A stretch of DNA of 64,000 nt from assembly GCA_021770755.1 (NCBI GenBank), contig JAETQI010000003.1:1-64000 (forward strand), given 5' to 3'. Numbering within the stretch: position 1 is the stretch's first letter; each line of letters opens with the position of its first letter. This document shows, in pieces, positions 1,880 to 39,644 of the stretch. Below the pieces are notes generated by a model. That model was not told where the DNA came from. It searched no databases and was given only the letters and a program-made list of their open reading frames with translations. The position numbers were made by a program, and so were the translations under genes. This DNA is from Lachnospiraceae bacterium. Lineage in GTDB: Bacteria > Bacillota > Clostridia > Lachnospirales > Lachnospiraceae.

Positions 1880-2896
1880 ATGAGTGCAAAAGAAAAGCTG
1901 AAAAATGACATTATCGTAGGGATGCATATGCATCTGGATTGTAACACACAGGCGATATTAGAGGCTGTAATTGTAAAGGTGGTACAGAATCTTGATATCA
2001 GAGAACTGGAAACACTGCCGGCTACAGTGGATAACACGAACCAGTACATAATGAGTTTGTTTGATGCAAAGAAGGCTCCCAAGCTGAGTCCTATGACAGT
2101 GGATTTTTATAAAAGCACTTTAAGTGAGTTTATGGCACTTGTTAACAAACCACTCAATACGGTTTGCGAATCCGATATAGAATATTATCTTGCGAAAAAG
2201 AAACCGAATAATACAAATGCGTCTTTAAACAATCTTCGTCGTAATTTATCTGCATTTTTCACATGGATGCGTAAGGAGAAGCTGATCAGCGAAAATCCAT
2301 GTGATGGTGTGGAACCGTATCAGGTGATCGAAAAACCGATTGACCATATGGAAGCGACAGAGGTTGAAAAACTCAAACTGGGCTGTAAATACAAGCGTGA
2401 CCGCGCATTAATAGAGTTTATGCGTTCGACAGCCATGCGGCGTGGGGAAGTGCCGATCGTAAGAATCTGCGACATAGATTTTAGAAGTGGAAAACTGGTT
2501 ATTTTCGGAGAAAAGACGCAGAAGTATCGGACAGTTTTTCTTGACAGTGTGGCAATACACTATATTCAAGAGTACTTAAAAGAAAGAGGCGTGCCAGTGA
2601 ACAGCAGGGAGCCTTTATTCACTTGGCTGCGAGGTGATAAGACAAAGGCGCTCGACAAAGAAGGTGTATATGCAAGTATAAAAGATATAGCAACAAGGGC
2701 AGGCATGGACAGACGGGTTTATCCGCATCTTTTCCGCAAGACTACCGCGACAAACATCTGCAAGCGTGGTGGCAGTGTTGATGCGGCAGGAGAATATCTT
2801 GGACATGCACCTAGAAATGTAACTGACCGGCATTATACCTATAAAGGCGATCAGTACGTGGAGCAGATTTTTCGCAGCTTTGTGGAGGCGGTATAA
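1880..2896 (+). CDS. Tyrosine recombinase, internal to the prophage
   Basis: A protein of 338 residues, typical length for a Xer/integrase-type recombinase. A SAM-like core-binding domain (about residues 65-150, with LRRNLSAFFTWMRKEK) precedes a catalytic domain. The catalytic pattern is complete: Arg187 in TAMRRGE, the Lys hairpin GEKTQKYR, His283 and Arg286 in HLFRKT, His309 in YLGH and Tyr319 in RHYTY. The start follows GAGGAGG. It sits between early genes and the packaging genes, over 26 kb from the right attachment site, an unusual place for the integrase. It may be a second recombinase, for example one that works the tail-fibre crossover sites at 24-29 kb. That role is inferred; it could still be the integrase. 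Confidence 0.88.
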   Translation: MSAKEKLKNDIIVGMHMHLDCNTQAILEAVIVKVVQNLDIRELETLPATVDNTNQYIMSLFDAKKAPKLSPMTVDFYKSTLSEFMALVNKPLNTVCESDIEYYLAKKKPNNTNASLNNLRRNLSAFFTWMRKEKLISENPCDGVEPYQVIEKPIDHMEATEVEKLKLGCKYKRDRALIEFMRSTAMRRGEVPIVRICDIDFRSGKLVIFGEKTQKYRTVFLDSVAIHYIQEYLKERGVPVNSREPLFTWLRGDKTKALDKEGVYASIKDIATRAGMDRRVYPHLFRKTTATNICKRGGSVDAAGEYLGHAPRNVTDRHYTYKGDQYVEQIFRSFVEAV

Positions 2897-21846: not shown

Positions 21847-22959
21847 GTGGCGTTTCAGGATTATCTGACTATGGAAGGAGAGAGGATGCTTGCGAAAGCG
21901 GCAGCAGGATATAAGATCAGGTTTACAAGGCTTATAATGGGATCAGGAGAAATTACAAATGGCATTTCAGAACGGGATATTAAGGAGGTGATAGTTCCCG
22001 AGCATACTGTAGATATTGGTGGAGTGTTTCTAAATGGAAATGATTCTGTGCTTGTTGCGGCAGTGTTTACAAATGCAGAAATAACAGAAGGATTTTATTT
22101 TCGGGAGAAAGCGCTTTATATTTCAGACGGAACGGAGGATGTCCTGGCTGTCTACGGCAATGCCAGGGAGCAGGCGGAATACATTGATACAGCGTCATTT
22201 ACGGTGATTGAGAAGCGGATACGGTCTATCATAAAGCTCACACAGTCAGAACTAAGTAACATTGTCCTATCAAGTGCTATCTGTGCAGTGGCGCCGATCA
22301 CTGTCGATGCTCCACTGGAAGCGTACATCAAAACCGCCAAAGCTGATATTATCGAGGTTGGACAGGTATTGATCGCAAACAGGGAGGTGTATACATATAT
22401 TGGAGACGATCCGCACAGTGAAGATTGTTATCGTGGTTGTGGTGGGCGGAAAGACATAACGATTGATCTGGACGAAATCCAGAAAGCGTTTGATGAGGTG
22501 TTCTGCTTCCGCTACATACCGTACTATAGCGTGATAGAGGCATGCTTCCGACAGACTTATACGCACGATCCTGACCGTATCACTACAGATACGGGACTGA
22601 CATGTGAAGACTATGGCATGGAGATAACAGCGGAGGAAATCAGGGACATGATCTGTGCTGGTTGGGACGGTGAGGATGCTTCGTACTATGACAACTGTGC
22701 GGAGACGGCGGAGGAGCAGTATCATATTGTATTTGGGTATTTCGGGGATCTTCCTGATAGCGCAATAATGACATCAGAAGATATAACGGAGGCTTTAAAC
22801 ACACCGTGGAGCGGGCAGACGTCCACGGATCCGGCAGCAATGACATCAGAAGATATAACGGAGGCTTTAAACACACCGTGGAGCGGGCAGACGTCCACGG
22901 ATCCAACAGTGTTGAGTGCCACGGAGATAGCAGAAGCAATCAAAAATTCAGTTTTATGA
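21847..22959 (+). CDS. Tail fibre/collar protein with C-terminal tandem repeat
   Basis: A protein of 370 residues from GTG 21847, after GGAGGTGAGGGA. The N-terminal 170 residues are the fibre-attachment module found behind gpI (AFQDYLTMEGERMLAKAAAG, FYFREKALYIS), followed by an unrecognised Cys-rich, acidic middle. The C-terminus has an exact 24-residue tandem duplication (MTSEDITEALNTPWSGQTST, starting at residues 308 and 332) and a third, degenerate unit (VLSATEIAEAIKNSVL). The duplication is nearly perfect in DNA, so it is recent or maintained by slippage. Confidence 0.75.
   Translation: MAFQDYLTMEGERMLAKAAAGYKIRFTRLIMGSGEITNGISERDIKEVIVPEHTVDIGGVFLNGNDSVLVAAVFTNAEITEGFYFREKALYISDGTEDVLAVYGNAREQAEYIDTASFTVIEKRIRSIIKLTQSELSNIVLSSAICAVAPITVDAPLEAYIKTAKADIIEVGQVLIANREVYTYIGDDPHSEDCYRGCGGRKDITIDLDEIQKAFDEVFCFRYIPYYSVIEACFRQTYTHDPDRITTDTGLTCEDYGMEITAEEIRDMICAGWDGEDASYYDNCAETAEEQYHIVFGYFGDLPDSAIMTSEDITEALNTPWSGQTSTDPAAMTSEDITEALNTPWSGQTSTDPTVLSATEIAEAIKNSVL
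22768..22904 (+). repeat. Two-copy 72-bp in-frame tandem repeat
   Basis: Copy one spans 22768-22839. Copy two starts at 22840 and is identical for 65 bases, up to 22904. 72 bases are 24 codons, so copy number can change without breaking the frame of the fibre gene. Confidence 0.95.
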
Positions 22960-23564: not shown

Positions 23565-24446
23565 ATGAATGACGAAAAATTGGACAAGAATGGACTTATC
23601 AAGGTCTGGCTTAAATTCTGGACATTGGTCAAGTTGCTTGTCGGTGATGTTGATATAGCAGGCAAAGGAGACCTGCAAACACAGATCAACCATATTGACA
23701 ACAGAGTAGATGAGTGTTTTCGAAATGCCAGTGATGGAAAGAAATTACTTGCAAACGCCATTACTGGCAAGGGGGTGCTGACAAAGGCGTCCGATACGTT
23801 TGCAACGATGGCAGAAAATATAGGCAATATAAAAGAAGTTGATGACAGTGTAAATGTGGAAAGCTTAAATTATCGAACTGGGTATAATGCTGGTGTGGCT
23901 GCGACTAAAAAAGGTACGGCTGGGACGGGGGACGTGCTGACTGGAAAAACCTTTACCAACGCAAGCAGCGTCGGGGCAAATGGGGGTATGGCAAACAAGG
24001 GGGCAGTAACCGTCGACTCCGGTCCTGTAACGCAGGATGATACATACACGTATCTTGCGGTACCAGCCGCAGCTTTTTACAACACCAATTCAAAACTTAG
24101 GACGAAAAATAGCAATATATTGCCTAAAAAAGTAGCACGAGTCGATAAAACAACAGGCAGACTGACTATGACCGTTCCGGCTGGAGCTAAAAGTGGTATA
24201 TTGATACTTTGTGCATCATACTGGAACGGGGAAAAAATAGTATTCGACGCCCCGTCTGGAGACGGCATTGTCTCCGCCACAAAGGTGCATGGTGCCTATA
24301 TTAGTGATAGCGGATTAAACACTTCCGCTAATGTGAATGTAGTTATTTATACAGTATCTTTAACTTCAAACGGCACCATAACGGCAGAAAATAACTATGA
24401 GAGTAATCAACATGGCGGTAAAAGTATGATACTGCTATACAGCTAA
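23565..24446 (+). CDS. Tail fibre with exchangeable C-terminal domain (expressed copy)
   Basis: A protein of 293 residues. The N-terminus repeats the fibre-opening motif (EKLDKNGLIKVWLKFWTLVK), followed by a helical shaft and a Gly/Ala-rich stretch (GTAGTGDVLTGKTFTNASSVGANGG-like). From residue 182 (NSNILPKKVARV) a separate beta-rich receptor-binding domain begins; it has a homologue on the opposite strand just downstream. The 12-bp crossover sequence AAATAGCAATAT (24107-24118) lies exactly at this border, in frame. The receptor specificity is therefore likely to change by DNA inversion. It starts after AAAGGAG. Confidence 0.75.
   Translation: MNDEKLDKNGLIKVWLKFWTLVKLLVGDVDIAGKGDLQTQINHIDNRVDECFRNASDGKKLLANAITGKGVLTKASDTFATMAENIGNIKEVDDSVNVESLNYRTGYNAGVAATKKGTAGTGDVLTGKTFTNASSVGANGGMANKGAVTVDSGPVTQDDTYTYLAVPAAAFYNTNSKLRTKNSNILPKKVARVDKTTGRLTMTVPAGAKSGILILCASYWNGEKIVFDAPSGDGIVSATKVHGAYISDSGLNTSANVNVVIYTVSLTSNGTITAENNYESNQHGGKSMILLYS
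24107..24118 (+). repeat. Crossover site A (AAATAGCAATAT) in the expressed fibre gene
   Basis: Forward copy of the 12-bp site, encoding the Asn-Ser-Asn-Ile joint at residues 182-185. It shares a further ATTGCC/CTTGCC flank with site B. Confidence 0.7.
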
Positions 24447-24456
24447 ACCGGCATTT
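24445..24456 (+). repeat. Junction repeat between convergent cassettes (pair 1)
   Basis: AAACCGGCATTT separates the ends of the two convergent fibre cassettes. Its exact reverse complement separates the second pair at 29011-29022. Confidence 0.6.
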
Positions 24457-24458
24457 AG

Positions 24459-24788
24459 CTAATACAGCAACACCATACTTGTACCGGAGTAAACATCTTC
24501 CGATCCAATCAAACCTGTGCTAGAATTGTTGACCGTTATAGCACCGCCTGATTTTAGAGCTACCTCGTAAATAACGATATGCAAGTTGGCATGTGCACCT
24601 CCATAAGCATCATGTAACTTTGTGGCAGAAACGATTCCTGCACCAGTCGGATCCGTAAACTTAATTTGATAAGCGTTCCAGTGTGACCCACAAATCACTA
24701 AAATTCCACTTTTGGCGCCAGCCGGCACAGTCATTTGTACGCTTTTGGGTGTTCCTGTGACGTTTACACGCTCAACATGTTTGGGCAA
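24459..24788 (-). CDS. Silent tail-fibre C-terminal cassette B
   Basis: Reading leftward, the frame runs from the crossover site at 24801 to a stop at 24459 and encodes about 113 residues homologous to the C-terminus of the expressed fibre. Shared parts include NSNILPK, MTVPAGAKSGIL, SxWN, GIVSATK and the final MVLLY. There is an internal ATG at 24788 but no ribosome site, and a TAA lies a few codons before the site, so it is most likely a spare domain that is expressed only after inversion of 24107-24801. Divergence from the expressed copy is concentrated in loops. Confidence 0.7.
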   Translation of the reverse strand: MPKHVERVNVTGTPKSVQMTVPAGAKSGILVICGSHWNAYQIKFTDPTGAGIVSATKLHDAYGGAHANLHIVIYEVALKSGGAITVNNSSTGLIGSEDVYSGTSMVLLY

Positions 24789-24789
24789 G

Positions 24790-24801
24790 ATATTGCTATT
24801 T
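24790..24801 (-). repeat. Crossover site B (AAATAGCAATAT), inverted
   Basis: Minus-strand copy of the 12-bp site, in the same codon phase (Asn-Ser-Asn-Ile) as site A. A and B bound a 695-bp invertible segment. Confidence 0.7.
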
Positions 24802-24865
24802 AGTCGATCAAGAAATTTTTAAAACAAGCCCGGAAGGGCATCAAAATCGAAAGGAGATTTTCATT

Positions 24866-25228
24866 ATGTATAATGTTATCATCGTTTTGGACGATTCCAG
24901 AGACAGGAGTTACTACTACTCTTATGTTGCCGAAAACGGCAACATAACATGCGAAGAGCTGCCTTCGTATGCAGACATCAACAAAGCACACGCATGCTAT
25001 TGGAACGGAGATAAGTGGGTGTTTGATGCGGACAAGTATGCCGAGATCGAGGCGGTTCTGGCAGCAGAAAAAGAAGCGGCTGACAAAGCAGCGGCAGAAG
25101 CAGCAGCAACGCCGACAAACGCTGAACTGGCATTGGCAGTAATGGATATCGGGGATAATCTGAATGCCGTTATGGATGCTGTTGCAGAACTTGGAAAAAC
25201 AGTAGCAACGATGAAGGGAGGTGAGTAA
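24866..25228 (+). CDS. Fibre-associated small protein with alanine-rich helix
   Basis: A protein of 120 residues after AAGGAG. The N-terminal 60 residues (MYNVIIVLDDSRDRSYYYSY, then ACYWNGDKWVFDADKY) form a small beta module. An Ala/Glu-rich helix (EAVLAAEKEAADKAAAEAAA) and a C-terminal helical part follow. Such proteins are common directly behind fibre genes in Clostridia phages and may be fibre assembly or tip proteins; the role is not known. It lies just outside site B, so an inversion between A and B leaves it intact. Confidence 0.6.
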   Translation: MYNVIIVLDDSRDRSYYYSYVAENGNITCEELPSYADINKAHACYWNGDKWVFDADKYAEIEAVLAAEKEAADKAAAEAAATPTNAELALAVMDIGDNLNAVMDAVAELGKTVATMKGGE

Positions 25229-25229
25229 T

Positions 25230-25340
25230 GTGGCAAAGATTTACTACAAAAGGATTAAGGCGGATCTCATGAAGATCACAGATGTGCCAGCACTCTGGCG
25301 TGCACAGGTGCAGAAACTTATTGACGCAGAGGCGGAATAA
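25230..25340 (+). CDS. CD1375-family mini-protein
   Basis: A protein of 36 residues from GTG 25230, preceded by GGGAGGTGAG that overlaps the upstream stop. MAKIYYKRIKADLMKITDVP and a C-terminal ALWRAQVQKLIDAEAE are the pattern of the tiny CD1375-type phage proteins found between fibre and lysis genes (XkdX-like place). Function unknown. It is followed at once by a terminator. Confidence 0.65.
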   Translation: MAKIYYKRIKADLMKITDVPALWRAQVQKLIDAEAE

Positions 25341-25349
25341 GTACATGGG

Positions 25350-25386
25350 AAACAGCCCTTCTGATAAAGGCAGCGGGGCTGTTTTT
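25350..25386 (+). terminator. Intrinsic terminator after the tail genes
   Basis: AAACAGCCC and GGGGCTGTTTTT form the stem, and the run of T follows within the stem end. It separates tail and lysis genes. Confidence 0.75.
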
Positions 25387-25414
25387 ATGATATGGGAAAG
25401 AGAGGCAAAACAAA

Positions 25415-25732
25415 ATGGATCCTACAATTATTCTTGCAATGGGAATACCATCAGCGATTACAGCTTTTTGTTTCTGGTGGATCGAAAGGAAGATAGAGAG
25501 AAGACAGGCAGAGCAGGACAAAAAAGACGATGCACGCAAGCAGAATGAAATAATTGTCCTGAAGGGAGTCAATGCAGCCATTGCATTGGGAGAAGCGACT
25601 GCGAGAGCTGTACAGCGCATTCCCGACGCACACTGCAACGGGGACATGCATCAGGCTCTTGAATATGCGGAAAAGATCAAGCACGAACAGAAAGATTTTC
25701 TCACGGAGCAGGGGGTCGAAGCAATTTATTGA
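25415..25732 (+). CDS. Small membrane protein of the lysis region
   Basis: A protein of 105 residues: one N-terminal membrane segment (IILAMGIPSAITAFCFWWI, residues 4-23) followed by a highly charged helix (ERKIERRQAEQDKKDDARKQNE). This is the XhlA/haemolysin-like topology often found before holin genes. It could anchor or time lysis; not proven. Its stop lies 11 bases before the next start. Confidence 0.5.
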   Translation: MDPTIILAMGIPSAITAFCFWWIERKIERRQAEQDKKDDARKQNEIIVLKGVNAAIALGEATARAVQRIPDAHCNGDMHQALEYAEKIKHEQKDFLTEQGVEAIY

Positions 25733-25742
25733 GGGTGGTCAG

Positions 25743-26033
25743 ATGAAACCGAAGAATAGCAGACAAAGAACATATACCAAAAATATGATGAACCGCATAA
25801 TAACGGTGGCATTGGTAGATATACAGTTTCCGTTTGTCCTGGCTTTGCTGGGACGTGATCAGATTGCCGAAACAATGGGAGGGCTGATTGTGACAGAAAT
25901 TGTCGGTGTATTTCTTGTCTATTGTGCAAAATCGTTTTTCGAAACAAAAGAATCGGAAAAAATAAGACTTAAGGAAATGCAGATCGCTGAAAAAGAAATG
26001 GAAGGAGAAAACTATGAACGAGATTGTATTTGA
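25743..26033 (+). CDS. Two-segment membrane protein of the lysis region, possible holin partner
   Basis: A protein of 96 residues with two hydrophobic segments (about residues 20-38 and 46-64: IITVALVDIQFPFVLALLG and GLIVTEIVGVFLVYCAKSFF), a basic N-terminus and a charged C-terminus. Two spans and small size are compatible with a class II holin or antiholin. It overlaps the LLH holin gene by 20 bases. The start at 25743 has GAGGGTGG ahead of it. Confidence 0.5.
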   Translation: MKPKNSRQRTYTKNMMNRIITVALVDIQFPFVLALLGRDQIAETMGGLIVTEIVGVFLVYCAKSFFETKESEKIRLKEMQIAEKEMEGENYERDCI

Positions 26034-26331
26034 GATATTGAGACTGCTTGTGCTGCTTGCAGTTTTCATAGTAACATGCTACCTGTTGCCTTTAATAAAA
26101 AGTAAGATCGGACAGGACAAACTGGAGGAGATCATAAAGTGGGTGAATGCGGCGGTTCTGATGGCACAGCAGGTTTACCATGCAAAAACGGGAGCCGAAA
26201 GGAAAGCTATCGTTATAGATCTGATGAAGGGCATTCTGATCGCAAAGAAAATCTCCATCACTGATGAGCAGCTTGACCTATTGATCGAGGCAGCAGTCAA
26301 ATCCATGAAAATACAGGAAGGTGAAAGTTGA
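26014..26331 (+). CDS. Phage holin, LLH family
   Basis: A protein of 105 residues. One N-terminal membrane segment (ILRLLVLLAVFIVTCYLLPLI) is followed by a helical soluble part with KIGQDKLEEIIKWVNAAVLMAQQ and a C-terminal KKISITDEQLDLLIEAAV. This is the LLH holin pattern. It permeabilises the membrane so that the endolysin, the next gene, can reach the wall. GGAGAAA stands before the start and its stop lies next to the endolysin start. Confidence 0.85.
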   Translation: MNEIVFEILRLLVLLAVFIVTCYLLPLIKSKIGQDKLEEIIKWVNAAVLMAQQVYHAKTGAERKAIVIDLMKGILIAKKISITDEQLDLLIEAAVKSMKIQEGES

Positions 26332-26333
26332 CG

Positions 26334-27611
26334 ATGAAGATAAGCGAACAGGGGATTACCCTGATAAAATCTTTTGAAAGTTGTAAACTGACCGCATATA
26401 AAGCATTAAATACCGAGGAACATTATACGATCGGCTGGGGGCATTATGGAGCAGATGTCAAAGCAGGGCAGACCATTTCAAAAAATGAGGCGGATGCCCT
26501 GTTTTTATCTGATTTACAGCGGTTTGTGAAGTATACCAATACTTATACAAAAAACATCACACTGAATCAGGATCAGTTTGACGCCCTTGTGTCGTTCTGC
26601 TATAACTGCGGTCCCGGAGCCCTGAAAAAACTTGTAAGCGGCAGGACAGTAAGGGAAATTGCAGAGCATATTACAGATGGATCATATACCCGGTCCAAAG
26701 GGAAGATTATTAAAGGACTGGTGCGGCGCAGACAGGAAGAAAAAGAACTGTTCTGCAGGGGAAGCGAGGTAAGACGTATGGCTGTCAAAATAGGGAGCGC
26801 AAGGATTGATGAAAACGGAAAACTGTCTGGGGGAAAAGCGGGTGACCAGACTGGGAAAGAGGTCAGCACACAGGATTATTATATGCACGCTAAAGGCTGG
26901 TATCTTCTTCGCCCGAAGAGTGTAGAGGACGCAGGCAAATTGGCAGCGGCAATGTTGGCTGCCTGCAATAATGACAATATCGGATATGACCAGAGCAACC
27001 GCCTGGATGTGATCTCCAAGCTGGGAAGATACGGTAGCATGGCAAAGATTGCGGAAAAGACAGAAGCAGATTGCGGAACGCTTGTCAGGGGGTGTTGTAT
27101 CGAGGCAGGGTTTGATCCAGGAAACTTCACGACAGCGGGAGAGGGAACGGCGCTTGCCAATACAGGCAGATTTGAAAGCAAAATTGTGGTCACAGCCACA
27201 ACAGTTCTTTATAATGGAGACGTTCTGGTTACCAAAACTAAAGGGCATACGGTGATCGTGGTTAGCGGAAATGCACGATCAGGTTCTGCAGTCCCTTCTG
27301 GGCGCCCAAATGGCTCCACAGCAGGTGCGTCGGTCAAAGCGTCCGCTAATCCATATCCAGAACCAACACGGACGATATACTACGCTCCAGGCAAAACCAA
27401 TATGCGTGGGGATGATGTTAAGTGGGTGCAGTGGCATATGTGGCGGTTTGGCTTGTTTTTGGATGGCGCAGGGCATCCGGATGCCAGCCAGATAGACGGA
27501 GTATGGGGGGCGGCATCGGATAAAGCTCTTGGGGAGGCACAGGGATTACTGGGACTGACACAGGACAAAAAGTGCGGACCGAAGTCAAGACAGGCATTTA
27601 AACGGATCTGA
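26334..27611 (+). CDS. Three-domain endolysin (GH24 muramidase, NlpC-like middle, PG-binding)
   Basis: A protein of 425 residues. Residues 1-140 are a T4-type lysozyme (GH24): catalytic Glu15 in SFESCKLTAY, then YTIGWGHYG. After a short link a second module (KEVSTQDYYMHAKGWYLLRP to VLYNGDVLVTKTKGHTVIVVSG) has DCGTLVRGC as a probable catalytic Cys and GHTVIVV as a probable His site, like the amidase/NlpC-type peptidases of phage lysins. A C-terminal peptidoglycan-binding domain (DDVKWVQWHMWRFGL, IDGVWGAASDKAL) completes it. Two catalytic domains cut both glycan and peptide. No signal peptide, so it needs the holin. Confidence 0.9.
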   Translation: MKISEQGITLIKSFESCKLTAYKALNTEEHYTIGWGHYGADVKAGQTISKNEADALFLSDLQRFVKYTNTYTKNITLNQDQFDALVSFCYNCGPGALKKLVSGRTVREIAEHITDGSYTRSKGKIIKGLVRRRQEEKELFCRGSEVRRMAVKIGSARIDENGKLSGGKAGDQTGKEVSTQDYYMHAKGWYLLRPKSVEDAGKLAAAMLAACNNDNIGYDQSNRLDVISKLGRYGSMAKIAEKTEADCGTLVRGCCIEAGFDPGNFTTAGEGTALANTGRFESKIVVTATTVLYNGDVLVTKTKGHTVIVVSGNARSGSAVPSGRPNGSTAGASVKASANPYPEPTRTIYYAPGKTNMRGDDVKWVQWHMWRFGLFLDGAGHPDASQIDGVWGAASDKALGEAQGLLGLTQDKKCGPKSRQAFKRI

Positions 27612-27629
27612 TCATTTAAACGCGAATCA

Positions 27630-27662
27630 AGAAAAGGGGCTGTGATTAACAGCCCTTTTTCT
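27630..27662 (+). terminator. Intrinsic terminator after the lysis genes
   Basis: GAAAAGGGGCTGT and ACAGCCCTTTTTC form a strong stem with T residues at its end, closing the late operon. Confidence 0.85.
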
Positions 27663-27693
27663 TATTAAACAGCAAATTTGCATAACATACATA

Positions 27694-27735
27694 ACGCACA
27701 TATGACTTGAAAATTTTACGCACATATGATATAAT
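27694..27735 (+). promoter_or_regulatory. Promoter with two ACGCACATAT operators ahead of the RHH gene
   Basis: TTGAAA (27707-27712), 17 bp, TATAAT (27730-27735). ACGCACATAT occurs at 27694-27703, upstream of the -35, and at 27718-27727, inside the spacer. Binding of a repressor there would block the promoter. Confidence 0.8.
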
Positions 27736-27761
27736 AAAAAAAACATATGGAGGTGTGGCAC

Positions 27762-27968
27762 ATGGCAAAAGAATATACACCAGAGCAAAGAGCCGCAAGG
27801 CAGAAGGCAGTTAGGGAATATGAAAACCGAAATTATCGGCTGAATATTGTTTTTCCCAATGGGACAAAGGAACGCATAGAAAATCTAGGGTTGAATAAGA
27901 CAGCAAGTGCGTTTGTGCGTGATACGGTTTTAACTAAACTGGATGAACTGGAAAAAATCTTGAAATAA
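27762..27968 (+). CDS. Ribbon-helix-helix regulator, probably autoregulatory
   Basis: A protein of 68 residues. A basic helical N-terminus (TPEQRAARQKAVREYENRN) is followed by the RHH core: a strand YRLNIVFPNGTKERIENLG and a helix KTASAFVRDTVLTKLDELEK. GGAGGTG precedes ATG 27762. The same 10-bp box ACGCACATAT lies in its own promoter and in the promoter directly behind it, so it most likely represses both. It is a separate unit from the late operon and might be expressed in the lysogen. No toxin partner of known type is recognised. Confidence 0.7.
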   Translation: MAKEYTPEQRAARQKAVREYENRNYRLNIVFPNGTKERIENLGLNKTASAFVRDTVLTKLDELEKILK

Positions 27969-28021
27969 CGCACATATTTCAAGGAAAAGAGCTTGACATT
28001 ATTACGCACATATATTATACT
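27968..28021 (+). promoter_or_regulatory. Second promoter with two ACGCACATAT operators
   Basis: TTGACA (27993-27998), 17 bp, TATACT (28016-28021). Boxes at 27968-27977 (starting on the stop codon of the regulator gene) and 28004-28013 (in the spacer) repeat the layout of the first promoter, one box before the -35 and one in the spacer. Confidence 0.8.
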
Positions 28022-28075
28022 ATAATTAGTCCAAGAGATAAAGGGCTAATAACCCGAAAGGGAGAAAGGAGAAAT

Positions 28076-28246
28076 ATGCAAGGGATGACAGATAAGCAGA
28101 TGCAGTTTATCGCATGGCTGATTACCACGGCAACGGATAAATGCCAAAGCTTGGAAGAAGTCAAAGAGATGAACAAGGAAATCCGTAAACATTCCACTGG
28201 ATTCCAGCCGGAAGCAGAAACGGATGAAAAGGAAAAGGCTGAATAA
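28076..28246 (+). CDS. Small protein controlled by the RHH boxes
   Basis: A protein of 56 residues after AAAGGAG: MQGMTDKQMQFIAWLITTAT, then a short charged helix and an acidic, probably disordered C-terminus. It is the first gene behind the second box-carrying promoter. I recognise no family; the pairing with a DNA-binding partner is reminiscent of small regulatory or toxin-antitoxin-like units, without further evidence. Confidence 0.55.
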   Translation: MQGMTDKQMQFIAWLITTATDKCQSLEEVKEMNKEIRKHSTGFQPEAETDEKEKAE

Positions 28247-28266
28247 ATCAGCCCAAAAACAGAAAA

Positions 28267-28290
28267 GGGCGGCAGGCACATAAGCCGCCC
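28267..28290 (+). terminator. GC-rich hairpin behind the small gene
   Basis: GGGCGGC and GCCGCCC enclose a 10-base loop. No T run follows, so it may be a partial terminator or an mRNA-stabilising end. Confidence 0.45.
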
Positions 28291-28356
28291 GATTCACAAA
28301 GTAATTATAGCAGATAACAGGATGAAAAGCAAATAGATTCAGAAAGGGTGAAAATT

Positions 28357-28587
28357 ATGGTGACATACTGGTATAAGGGCGAAGAAAGAGAAGTAACAGA
28401 GGAAATTGCTGATGCGGCCATGAATGAATTTGAAGAACGTTTTTTGGAGGAAGAAGATAGAAGCGCATGGGAAGATGTAAGGGAAGAGGGATTTGACGAA
28501 GCAATCGGTTTTGCAAGTGAAAAATACAATGTAAATCTAGAACAGTTCTTCCCAGAGGACTGGAGAGCGGAACATAAGACTTTTTAA
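28357..28587 (+). CDS. Acidic small protein, last gene before the silent fibre cassettes
   Basis: A protein of 76 residues, very acidic (runs such as EEREVTEEIADAAMNEFEER and FLEEEDRSAWEDVREEG). ATG 28357 is 8 bases after AAAGGG; a GTG at 28348 is an alternative. No motif recognised. High negative charge in a phage accessory gene could suggest a DNA mimic, but that is speculation. A terminator follows. Confidence 0.5.
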   Translation: MVTYWYKGEEREVTEEIADAAMNEFEERFLEEEDRSAWEDVREEGFDEAIGFASEKYNVNLEQFFPEDWRAEHKTF

Positions 28588-28616
28588 GCTGTTTAGGAGA
28601 TTATTAAGAAAAAACG

Positions 28617-28645
28617 AAAAAAGGCTGCTAATTACAGTCTTTTTT
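28617..28645 (+). terminator. Intrinsic terminator
   Basis: AAAAAAGGCTG and CAGTCTTTTTT form a stem with one G-T pair and a T run. It isolates the downstream cassettes from transcription, in keeping with their silence. Confidence 0.7.
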
Positions 28646-28672
28646 ATGTATGTGATCTTCAGATAGTAAAAT

Positions 28673-28684
28673 AAATAGCAATAT
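28673..28684 (+). repeat. Crossover site C (AAATAGCAATAT)
   Basis: Forward copy of the 12-bp site at the head of cassette C, again in the Asn-Ser-Asn-Ile phase. Confidence 0.7.
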
Positions 28685-29012
28685 ATCGAACATCTGTAAA
28701 AAAGGAACCTTTACAGGAACAGGGCAAGGAACCACAAACACAATTAATGTTGGGTTTAAGCCTAGCGCGGTGTTTTTGGTGGCGCCATGTCCTGGGTATG
28801 GCGTTAATGTTATGACAAAAATTGATGGAGAGGATAAAGTCAGCGGTACAATTGCAGATTTTTTTCTAAACATGACTAACCTGGCGTCGGGAGGTGTAAT
28901 CACTGATCCGTCAAAATGTTCTATTGAGCTGACAAGTACCGGATTTAGTTTTCATCAGGAAATAACTTCCAGATATACAGGACAGACAATTAAATATTTT
29001 GCGATAAAGTAA
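28674..29012 (+). pseudogene. Silent tail-fibre C-terminal cassette C
   Basis: From the crossover site the frame reads NSNISNICKKGTFTGTGQGT and continues for about 112 residues to a TAA at 29010-29012, ending RYTGQTIKYFAIK. The fold type (GTFTGxGxxTxxINxGFxPxAVFLV) is a common phage-fibre receptor-binding tip and differs from the A/B pair. Upstream the frame is closed by a TGA at 28653 and has no start codon or ribosome site. It would be expressed only after joining to the fibre gene. 'Silent reserve' is a better term than decayed gene. Confidence 0.65.
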
Positions 29013-29022
29013 ATGCCGGTTT
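29011..29022 (-). repeat. Junction repeat between convergent cassettes (pair 2), inverted
   Basis: AAATGCCGGTTT is the exact reverse complement of the junction of pair 1 (24445-24456). This shows that the two pairs derive from one ancestral unit, now in opposite orientation. Confidence 0.6.
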
Positions 29023-29029
29023 AGATCAG

Positions 29030-29299
29030 CTATGCCCACCAATACTCAAAATTACTTGCGTTTCCCGCGCTATTTGTTATGTTGTACGATGTATCATTAT
29101 TTTTAGTGATGATTACAGCATATCCAAGCCGTGCGCTAGTTGCCACAATGTATCCTCCGAGGAATGCGTCATTACTTGTTTCGTGCGCCACTATGATACT
29201 TGGTTTTCTGCTGGTCGTAATCGTTTTTGCTCCGCCAGTAAGAGTTCCAGTGTTGACCTTTGCTATATTGCTATTTAAAATAGGAAGTAGTTCGAACAT
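29030..29299 (-). CDS. Silent tail-fibre C-terminal cassette D
   Basis: Reading leftward, the crossover site at 29276-29265 encodes NSNI and continues AKVNTGTLTGGAKTITTSRK to the stop at 29030, ending NASNFEYWWA, a typical aromatic fibre-tip terminus. Its GTLTGGAKTI opening is related to cassette C rather than to A/B. An ATG lies eight codons before the site (MFELLPIL) but no ribosome site is seen. The cassette is convergent with C and is the last phage sequence before the attachment site. Confidence 0.65.
   Translation of the reverse strand: MFELLPILNSNIAKVNTGTLTGGAKTITTSRKPSIIVAHETSNDAFLGGYIVATSARLGYAVIITKNNDTSYNITNSAGNASNFEYWWA
29265..29276 (-). repeat. Crossover site D (AAATAGCAATAT), inverted
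   Basis: Minus-strand copy of the 12-bp site heading cassette D. An inversion between A and D would flip about 5.2 kb and join D to the fibre gene. Confidence 0.7.
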
Positions 29300-29340: not shown

Positions 29341-29395
29341 CACTGATGGCTAAAAACGCTACATTTAATAGGACTAACGTACCTTATATTACTTG

Positions 29396-29439
29396 ACTTT
29401 TAATCAAGTTGTCCGGGGTTCGAGTCCCCGATGTCTCAT
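29396..29439 (+). other. Prophage right attachment site: 3' part of tRNA-Lys(TTT)
   Basis: The sequence from the anticodon loop (CTTTTAA, stem CTTGA/TCAAG) through the T arm to the acceptor strand ATGTCTC is a tRNA-Lys 3' half. No matching 5' half (D arm, GAGACAT acceptor strand) lies upstream, so it is an attachment core, not a gene. The 5' half should be at the left end, outside the window. It matches 30414-30457 in 42 of 44 bases. Confidence 0.8.
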
Positions 29440-30262: not shown

Positions 30263-30413
30263 TAAGAAAATAATTTCAGGACAGACGTTGTCAAAGGGGT
30301 ATTGATAATGATAGGAAATGAATTGATTAATCCGCTCAAAATCAGCGCTCATAAAAAATATGAAAAACCCGGAACCTGGGAAATATAAGGGTTTCAGGGT
30401 TCGCGCTTACCTA

Positions 30414-30457
30414 ACTTTTAATCAGGTGGTCCGGGGTTCGAGTCCCCGATGTCTCAT
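30414..30457 (+). other. Second tRNA-Lys(TTT) 3' fragment, older attachment site
   Basis: Same 44-base core as at 29396-29439, with two changes. It also lacks a 5' half. It is followed by the probable original tRNA terminator (30518-30547). It marks the right end of an element that entered before the present prophage. Confidence 0.75.
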
Positions 30458-37519: not shown

Positions 37520-37535
37520 TCCCCATACCCCAGAT

Positions 37536-37615
37536 GCGGAATTGATGGAATTGGCAGACATGCAGGATTTAGGTTCCTGTGGGCAACCGTGAGGGTTCAA
37601 ATCCCTCATTCCGCA
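37536..37615 (+). tRNA. tRNA-Leu (anticodon TAG)
   Basis: The acceptor arms GCGGAAT/ATTCCGC pair, the anticodon stem CAGGA/TCCTG encloses TTTAGGT (TAG), a short variable arm follows (TGGGCAACCGT), and the T arm GAGGG-TTCAAAT-CCCTC is perfect. Without encoded CCA. It sits only 16 bases behind the truncated copy and shares its promoter. Confidence 0.88.
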
Positions 37616-37618
37616 TAA

Positions 37619-39134: not shown

Positions 39135-39317
39135 TTTCATTCGGAAAGTTAATAATCCGCTTTACTTTTCCCGTAAGATTAGAGATAATAGAGTTGTCCA
39201 GGAAATAAGCAGACAACTCGTCCGATTTTCCACAGCCGAAACTGGGAACCTGCGAGTGTAAATTGAGAAAAATCCTACGAGACAGAAGTAGTACCCTGTT
39301 ATTTACAAGGCTTTTAT

Positions 39318-39397
39318 GCGGATATGGCGGAATTGGCAGACGCGTTAGATTTAGGTTCTGGTGGGTGACCGTGCAGGTTCAAGTTCTGTTATCCGCA
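39318..39397 (+). tRNA. tRNA-Leu (anticodon TAG), second copy, possibly weakened
   Basis: The acceptor arms GCGGATA/TATCCGC pair, and the anticodon loop is TTTAGGT. The anticodon stem contains two G-T pairs, and the T arm (GCAGG-TTCAAGT-TCTGT) has a G-T at the normally invariant G53-C61 pair. It may be poorly functional, a trace of an element-driven exchange with a foreign 3' half. No clear terminator directly follows. Confidence 0.65.
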
Positions 39398-39644
39398 TTA
39401 GATGTTTAGTATATCTTTAGTGTCATACGTTCCTTTTCTTTTCTGCTTCCATTGCCCTCGGTGCTTTCCATTCTTCAAATTCTTTTTTACCGTTTGGGTT
39501 TTTATTAAGTGCAGTGCCGCCATGCTGCGGCGTGTGTTCTCCGCCGGTACGCAAATGCGGTGAAAGCAGCGACCAGTTCCGGCAGTTGATGAAGAAAAGG
39601 GTAGAACAAATGGGAAAAGTACAAATTCTCAAGGAGGAAAAACA
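39398..39644. other. Gap before the ceramidase-like gene, possible gene remnant on the minus strand
   Basis: Nothing complete is coded. On the minus strand a frame without a start ends as TPQHGGTALNKNPNGKKEFE, then WKAPRAMEAEKKRNV and a stop at 39423; it looks like the C-terminal end of a protein from a mobile element, but I cannot name it. An AAGGAGG for the next gene lies at the right end. Confidence 0.35.

Follow-up and report, generated by a model that had tools for sequence, protein, structure and literature searches.

The prophage tail-fibre locus

The window analysed here, the first 64,000 nucleotides of contig JAETQI010000003.1 of a Lachnospiraceae bacterium, contains within a prophage a tail-fibre gene (23565-24446) and three further fibre tips that are silent. 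Base 1 of the window is base 1 of contig C113 (genome of 4.74 Mb, 122 contigs) and already lies inside the prophage, the left end of which sits on a different contig. The fibre gene is followed by the convergent tip B, small open reading frames (ORFs), the holin and endolysin genes, three small ORFs, the tips C and D, and a probable attR (Table 1). The fibre gene itself consists of a constant body and tip A. Judging from the DNA of this prophage and its relatives, the array is probably a tail-fibre shufflon with four tips, of the type that depends on a tyrosine recombinase.

The 12-bp sequence AAATAGCAATAT occurs in four exact copies, sites A to D, at 24107-24118 (+), 24790-24801 (-), 28673-28684 (+) and 29265-29276 (-), which confirms the positions and orientations given by a first-pass annotation. 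With one mismatch allowed, the 64 kb hold 5 matches against 0.39 expected, and none of 100 shuffled sequences reached 5. The orientation alternates (A >, < B, C >, < D), so that the sites form two pairs, each convergent, as had been proposed. The frame AAT-AGC-AAT-AT. (Asn-Ser-Asn-Ile, N-S-N-I) stays open downstream of A, B, C and D for 112, 113, 112 and 81 codons, respectively. Upstream, the in-frame run is 181 codons at A and 6, 6 and 17 codons at B, C and D. The earlier claims that each tip is entered in the same phase, and that the first copy alone is joined to a gene, here the fibre body, were thus borne out. Tip D has an in-frame ATG at 29299, at which a ribosome site is not evident by eye.

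The exact repeat is 12 bp long, yet the DNA conserved at the active junction runs further. At 12 active junctions, including those of related phages, the stretch TT-AGG-ACG-AAA-AAT-AGY-AAT shows an almost invariant choice of codons, in contrast to the drift of most codons nearby. In synonymous comparisons, the same-codon frequency is 0.83-1.0 over the seven site codons, except for AGC/AGT (0.52). For the 26 codons before the site it is 0.29-0.78 in 24 and 0.89 and 1.00 in the other two.

The whole genome holds 8 exact copies of the 12-mer. Four are those of the window, and one lies in a second prophage, at an identical junction (C38:105). The other three are found in other contexts (C46, and C120 twice), so the 12-mer does occur in the genome without tips.

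The silent tips B, C and D have open frames; searched singly, they had no match in Pfam or PHROG. A 15-bp spacer separates the convergent stops of A and B, and its second copy, which is inverted, lies between C and D. In 7.6 kb, a perfect inverted match of 15 bp has an expectation of about 0.03 (hand calculation). Its presence at both tip junctions is very unlikely to be due to chance and implies that the pairs have a common origin or have exchanged parts. The spacer is possibly a second exchange point at the tip ends; its 10-bp core was absent from all 11 relatives searched.

The body of the fibre had one weak match in the phage collection, to a Clostridioides phage over 62 residues. The AlphaFold2 model of the fibre, with a mean predicted local distance difference test score of 36.8, was too low in confidence to use, and a match to a solved structure (E 0.66) was rejected as chance. 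The tips would presumably act in receptor recognition.

Table 1. Coordinates and evidence for the features of the locus, in window positions.
Feature	Position	Strand	Evidence
Tyrosine recombinase, "pre-terminase" clade; candidate	1880..2896	+	Genome's closest relative found to the cassette invertases; missing from G002 at a clean junction
Fibre gene, constant body, 181 codons up to the crossover	23565..24106	+	Open frame; PHROG tail-fibre match at residues 38-96, E 6e-7; homologous bodies in L009-L022
Active crossover site A, DNA-conserved left flank TTAGGACGAA + AAATAGCAATAT	24097..24119	+	90.5% identity to relative G002 over 21.3 kb stops at 24119
Tip A, joined to body	24107..24446	+	Open frame
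15-bp spacer between convergent stops of A and B	24443..24457		Perfect inverted match to second copy
Silent tip B with site B (24790-24801)	24468..24801	-	Over 201 bp, DNA 69% identical to that of tip A
Small ORF, 120 amino acids, after site B	24866..25228	+	Also found ahead of the recombinase gene in relative L010; DNA 74% identical over 487 bp
Holin (Holin_LLH)	26014..26331	+	Pfam PF09682, E 3.5e-19
Endolysin (Phage_lysozyme + ELLD + PG_binding_1)	26328..27611	+	Pfam, E 6.4e-29, 3.6e-44 and 1.8e-4 (last below its cut-off)
Silent tip C with site C (28673-28684)	28673..29012	+	Exact site, open frame
Inverted second copy of 15-bp spacer, between C and D	29010..29024		Repeat search
Silent tip D with site D (29265-29276)	29033..29276	-	Exact site, open frame
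Probable attR, 51-bp copy of tRNA-Lys 3' end	29389..29439	+	92% identical to intact tRNA-Lys 30380-30456

Alternative joints in related phages

Related phages carrying the same site with other tips, for which a search had been suggested, were found in several groups (G001/G002, L013/L014, L016/L084/L018 and L017/L092). The nearest relative found, G002 (a virus record; contig of L010), is 90.5% identical to window positions 2904-24119. Its homology to the window stops one base past site A and picks up again at 24849, on the far side of site B. The contigs G001/L009 and G002/L010 come from two IMG/VR samples and differ by 3 mismatches in 20,082 bp (99.985% identity). Their identity stops at base 10 of the site, and the tips and flank beyond are unrelated. 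In L013 and L014, the bodies are 99.2% identical over 5,269 bp and part at the site. The start of the active tip of L014 is the inverted silent tip of L013 (97.6% over 83 bp), and it also matches the start of a third, cut-off tip of L013 (98.2% over 56 bp). L016 shares with L084 and L018 a 1.9-kb right flank with the lysis genes, 91% and 94.5% identical, respectively, which starts at the site, and the tips in between differ. In the metagenome-assembled genome (MAG) JAIEEY, contig L017 ends 61 bases past the site, inside a tip that is joined to the body there and to a silent flank in contig L092. The two contigs diverge exactly at AAATAGCAATT; the same picture would arise if the sample held that tip twice. 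L013/L014 and L017/L092 are evidence of the inversion type, and G001/G002 and L016 with L084 and L018 of the exchange type.

Contigs also tend to break at the active site. Of the 14 contigs that have an active junction of this type, six stop no more than 110 bp from the site, where 0.154 would be expected (P 2.3e-9), a figure that assumes uniform contig ends. Without L009 (the same phage as L010) and L084, the count is 5 of 12 (P 2.4e-8). The count leaves out L021 and L022, which are copies of L014 and L011, L015, the match of which falls short of the site, and, because their linkers differ, L077, L078 and L132-L151. Assemblers break contigs in this way when several joints coexist.

Recombinase arrays and a common site grammar

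In L010 and L013, a gene for a tyrosine recombinase of 331-341 amino acids has the first tip pair on one side and, on the other, a third tip, where the contig ends. In L077, the recombinase gene lies between two full tip pairs. L079 matches both ends of G002 at 100%, thereby closing the circle, and supplies the fourth tip, which is followed by ORFs read by eye as holin, endolysin and integrase. Homologues of the cassette recombinase (E <= 1e-60) were found in 50 of 397 sampled genomes of the family, with up to 5 candidates scored in each; some of these loci encode HsdS, not tails. From 58 listed recombinase loci, 20 were fetched and searched for repeats without an assumed sequence. Nine have four alternating sites, six have three (in L142, none of the three opens a tip frame), and five have none or chance-like repeats. 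Tail-family PHROG matches were obtained for 8 of the 9 active bodies tested, the exception being L132.

Five of the nine four-site loci are HsdS loci (L146, L148-L151; Pfam Methylase_S in L146 and L151, the others by eye). Their recombinase belongs to a neighbouring clade and is flanked by two pairs of sites that follow the same grammar and are read in the same frame, as I-N-x-N-L. Altogether, 70 sites align to approximately TAAAY-NNN-AATTTA, read mostly as [I/L/K]-N-x-N-[L/I]; a per-phage core was used to pick them, and only the agreement between phages is informative. Some sites (L143, L144) depart from the grammar on the right side. The window sites fit it: the silent ones read TAAAT-AGC-AATAT., with one departure in the right arm, and the active one has AAAAT on the left, like other active sites of the same junction type.

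The active site is clear in 11 loci. In seven of these (L010, L013, L078, L133, L135, L140, L143) the recombinase and fibre genes point the same way, and in four (L077, L132, L137, L141) they point opposite ways, as expected if the middle block flips. The relatives carry a tyrosine enzyme, which argues against a serine-type G-segment, one of the two models invoked by the first-pass annotation; the tyrosine type (Rin-like, HsdS-like) fits. Not all relatives have kept the gene. In L018 (8778-8951), the recombinase is reduced to its C-terminal 57-60 residues inside the tip array, which is decay of the switch in this relative, and L011/L022 and L016 have no recombinase beside the tips.

The middle block and the proposed switch

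The middle block of the window (24802-28672) is 3.87 kb long and holds the lysis genes and small ORFs without a cassette-clade recombinase. In the tail-like recombinase arrays with both inner sites seen, it measures about 1.1-2.3 kb. The first-pass annotation had called it unusual that half of the tips lie beyond the lysis genes, next to the attachment site. Two convergent pairs as such recur in relatives, where they usually enclose a tyrosine recombinase; the window phage differs in having the lysis genes in mid-block and the pair C/D adjoining the attachment site.

In the proposed mechanism, a recombinase would exchange strands at a site of about 14 bp, which at the silent tips is the imperfect dyad TAAAT-AGC-AATATA, read in frame as N-S-N-I. 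Inversion between A and B would exchange the two near tips, and inversion between C and D the far pair. Inversion between A and D would swap the pairs and flip the block between them, and inversion between B and C would flip the middle block alone. In relatives, the recombinase gene lies on this block. In the window prophage, the block contains the lysis genes without a recombinase, so that switching is most likely rare and due to an enzyme acting in trans or to the recombinase encoded at 1880-2896, with A-B as the main harmless switch.

An A-D inversion of about 5.2 kb had been predicted to yield tip D. It may do so, but here it would set holin and endolysin against late transcription, and it would take a further inversion, between B and C, to restore their orientation. 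Large inversions are therefore probably rare or counter-selected, and A-D is probably either rare, or dependent on this second flip, or absent. With the lysis genes antisense after A-D, the A-B inversion would be the expected working switch, if there is one. The number of promoter-like sites in the lysis block (10, against 9.3 in shuffled sequences) gives no grounds for an inference.

Does the array still switch?

The reading as a switching shufflon draws on a tip array that crosses over at the site and on the alternative joints in near relatives. Several observations weigh against it. No alternative joint was found for the four tips of this strain, and the window contig runs unbroken through all four sites, which implies that one arrangement dominated. 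No cassette-clade recombinase is present in the window or was found in the genome assembly, which is incomplete. None of the four tips has a relative in viral_contigs, and tips A and C have none in the phage collection. The tips of L009 are wholly missing from G002, so that this pair shows exchange at the site and not inversion within one phage. The excess of contig ends, in turn, depends on the assumption of uniformity. Taken together, the sequences argue better for a shufflon lineage than for an active four-way switch in this strain, where the identity of the recombinase and its activity are inferred.

The array may instead be a frozen remnant, descended from a working shufflon but no longer able to switch, its recombinase lost and the lysis genes between the pairs, in which case B, C and D would be dead stock. 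This is somewhat unlikely, although it has more in its favour than the other alternatives. It agrees with the missing cassette recombinase, with the relative L018, in which the enzyme is cut to about 60 amino acids, with lysis genes in mid-block that make large inversions costly, and with the contig unbroken at the four sites. However, the frames of all four tips are in phase and still open for 81-113 codons, and the four 12-mers are exact; decay would erode both. Moreover, the second prophage of the genome shares the 22-bp junction exactly and lies on a contig that breaks off 104 bp beyond it, though no partner joint was found.

If the shufflon does still operate, its invertase may be the tyrosine recombinase encoded at 1880-2896, as a replacement for the cassette-borne gene. 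No other gene found in the genome comes closer to the cassette invertase (34% identity, E 4e-42; an Xer-like gene comes second at 1.9e-24). The catalytic R, HxxR, H and Y of the encoded protein look intact by eye, and G002, 90.5% identical, lacks this gene but has the cassette gene. In the tree, which was midpoint-rooted and gave long-branch warnings, the protein falls into a separate clade (support 99/95); this clade groups with the cassette and HsdS enzymes, to the exclusion of the other entries, at 100/98. In the relatives inspected, genes of this type precede what look by eye like terminase genes. This place and the separate clade weaken the case for it as the obvious invertase. Furthermore, a comparable site array was not seen within 3.5 kb of the gene in L152-L157 (L152 has chance-like 10-mers, and L154 ends at the gene), and the fragments G003, G004, G006 and G008 have the junction with neither a cassette recombinase nor a gene of the 1880 type. 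That this gene is the invertase is accordingly doubtful.

The pre-terminase clade itself (window 1880-2896; L091, L152-L157) is distributed over several different phages of the Lachnospiraceae family and is missing from an otherwise 90.5% identical phage. The Resolvase family has 17 matches in the genome, none of them on the contig of the window; the left end of the prophage is on another contig. A serine invertase was considered and rejected: one small Resolvase-family frame (223 amino acids, C57) is located on another contig.

A further possibility is that the enzyme comes from another phage. Contig C38 of the same genome belongs to a different tailed phage, the fibre of which ends in the same 22-bp junction; the contig stops 104 bp past it. 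Between C38 and window positions 1-29440, there is a single DNA match, 24 bp at the junction, and a single translated match, 56 residues around it. A search of the 397 family genomes for the junction 22-mer with at most 2 mismatches found it in this genome (twice, exact) and once in G091, at two mismatches. A reversed control pattern matched 18 genomes, so the G091 match is background. Lachnospiraceae contigs of another collection also carry the junction (L017-L022).

Foreign tips are seen in L009 (8543-9416), in which the phage body is joined at the site to two tips and a flank that are missing from the circle of G002 and L079. By eye, this flank opens an ORF, MVEKPDYVLNFVRPA. A 24-mer of this flank matched its own contig alone in viral_contigs, and a search for the origin of the tips gave weak short matches (27-52 bases) in 9 of 378 family genomes. 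In addition, one MAG contains two cassette phages with the same site, one of which (L022) has no recombinase beside the tips. The C38 junction, the foreign tips and this MAG allow tip exchange between co-resident elements without proving it. The site might then serve as a shared currency, the recombinase of one co-resident prophage reshuffling or trading the tips of another, with the window phage as a user that has no recombinase of its own and whose lysis genes would ride on an invertible block. This suggestion is tentative and on balance unlikely. Against switching in this strain stands the finding that the assembly has the beginning of the C38 tip in a single copy, so that the presumed second joint was not seen.

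The least credible alternative, that the site is a short conserved coding motif (a KNSN linker) and that the tips are swapped by ordinary homologous recombination, gains from the coding nature of the motif and from the conservation of the linker peptide in those fibres of L009-L022 that reach it, but is very improbable given that the silent tips B, C and D keep the motif without the linker, that codon choice is held at the site and drifts before it, that the motif also occurs inverted, and that identity between phages breaks inside the site.

Other features of the window

The tRNA-Lys 3' fragment at 29389-29439 is followed by about 1 kb in which no clear gene was seen and then by the intact tRNA-Lys gene (30380-30456). 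In the region 27691-28013, a small ORF of 73 amino acids is ribbon-helix-helix-like by eye, without a Pfam match. It is flanked by three copies of a 13-mer like ATAACGCACATAT, close to promoter-like sites. A tail gene at 21847-22959 holds a tandem repeat of about 66 bp at 22770-22900 (by eye). Two tRNA-Leu(TAG) genes (37535-37616 and 39317-39398) lie 1.7 kb apart and enclose a regulator-like ORF and a primase-like fragment, both read by eye, the latter without a Pfam match. The segment bounded by these tRNA genes is possibly the remnant of a small element.

Comparison with known systems

The serine invertases Gin (Mu), Cin (P1) and Min (p15B) exchange the 3' ends of tail-fibre genes by inversion. 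Fibre 3' ends are exchanged alike in the relatives of the window phage, but these carry a tyrosine enzyme. The PilV shufflon of plasmid R64 uses a tyrosine recombinase (Rci) and inverts several silent 3' cassettes; it serves the pilin tip of a conjugative plasmid and has longer conserved sites.

Within the literature compared, which includes PMC5903667, PMC7096588 and PMC11323893, the closest printed system is the Rin shufflon of Bifidobacterium prophages. There, the receptor-binding protein gene is described as having a constant 5' part and exchangeable 3' cassettes with an 11 bp site each, TTCCCTAACCC (rix), and a XerD-like tyrosine recombinase is encoded at one end of the cassette block; inversions were seen between related prophages (PMC6109161). 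Like Rin, the window has a constant fibre body and several alternative 3' tips at a short site read in the same phase. Unlike Rin, its site is AAATAGCAATAT and not rix, its pairs are far apart with the lysis genes between them, and no tyrosine recombinase adjoins the cassettes, whereas one is present in L010, L013 and L077.

A published HsdS shufflon with a tyrosine recombinase is the PsrA/cod locus of S. pneumoniae (PMC7096588). The HsdS shufflons found here (L146, L148-L151) resemble the phage tail arrays in their two-pair layout and site grammar and use a recombinase of a neighbouring clade, but they switch DNA specificity subunits where the phage arrays switch tips. The literature searched, with most subscription papers outside reach, contained no description of such an array in Lachnospiraceae phages.

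One recombinase family and one site grammar, common to the restriction-specificity shufflons, provide a sequence rule for finding tail-tip shufflons in Lachnospiraceae, which makes the tip variation of such gut phages testable from existing reads. The window phage raises the question of whether the invertible block of a shufflon can include lysis genes, with the recombinase supplied in trans. With the Lachnospiraceae arrays of the form A> <B (recombinase) C> <D, it shares the four alternating sites, and it differs from them in having no cassette-clade recombinase in the middle block.

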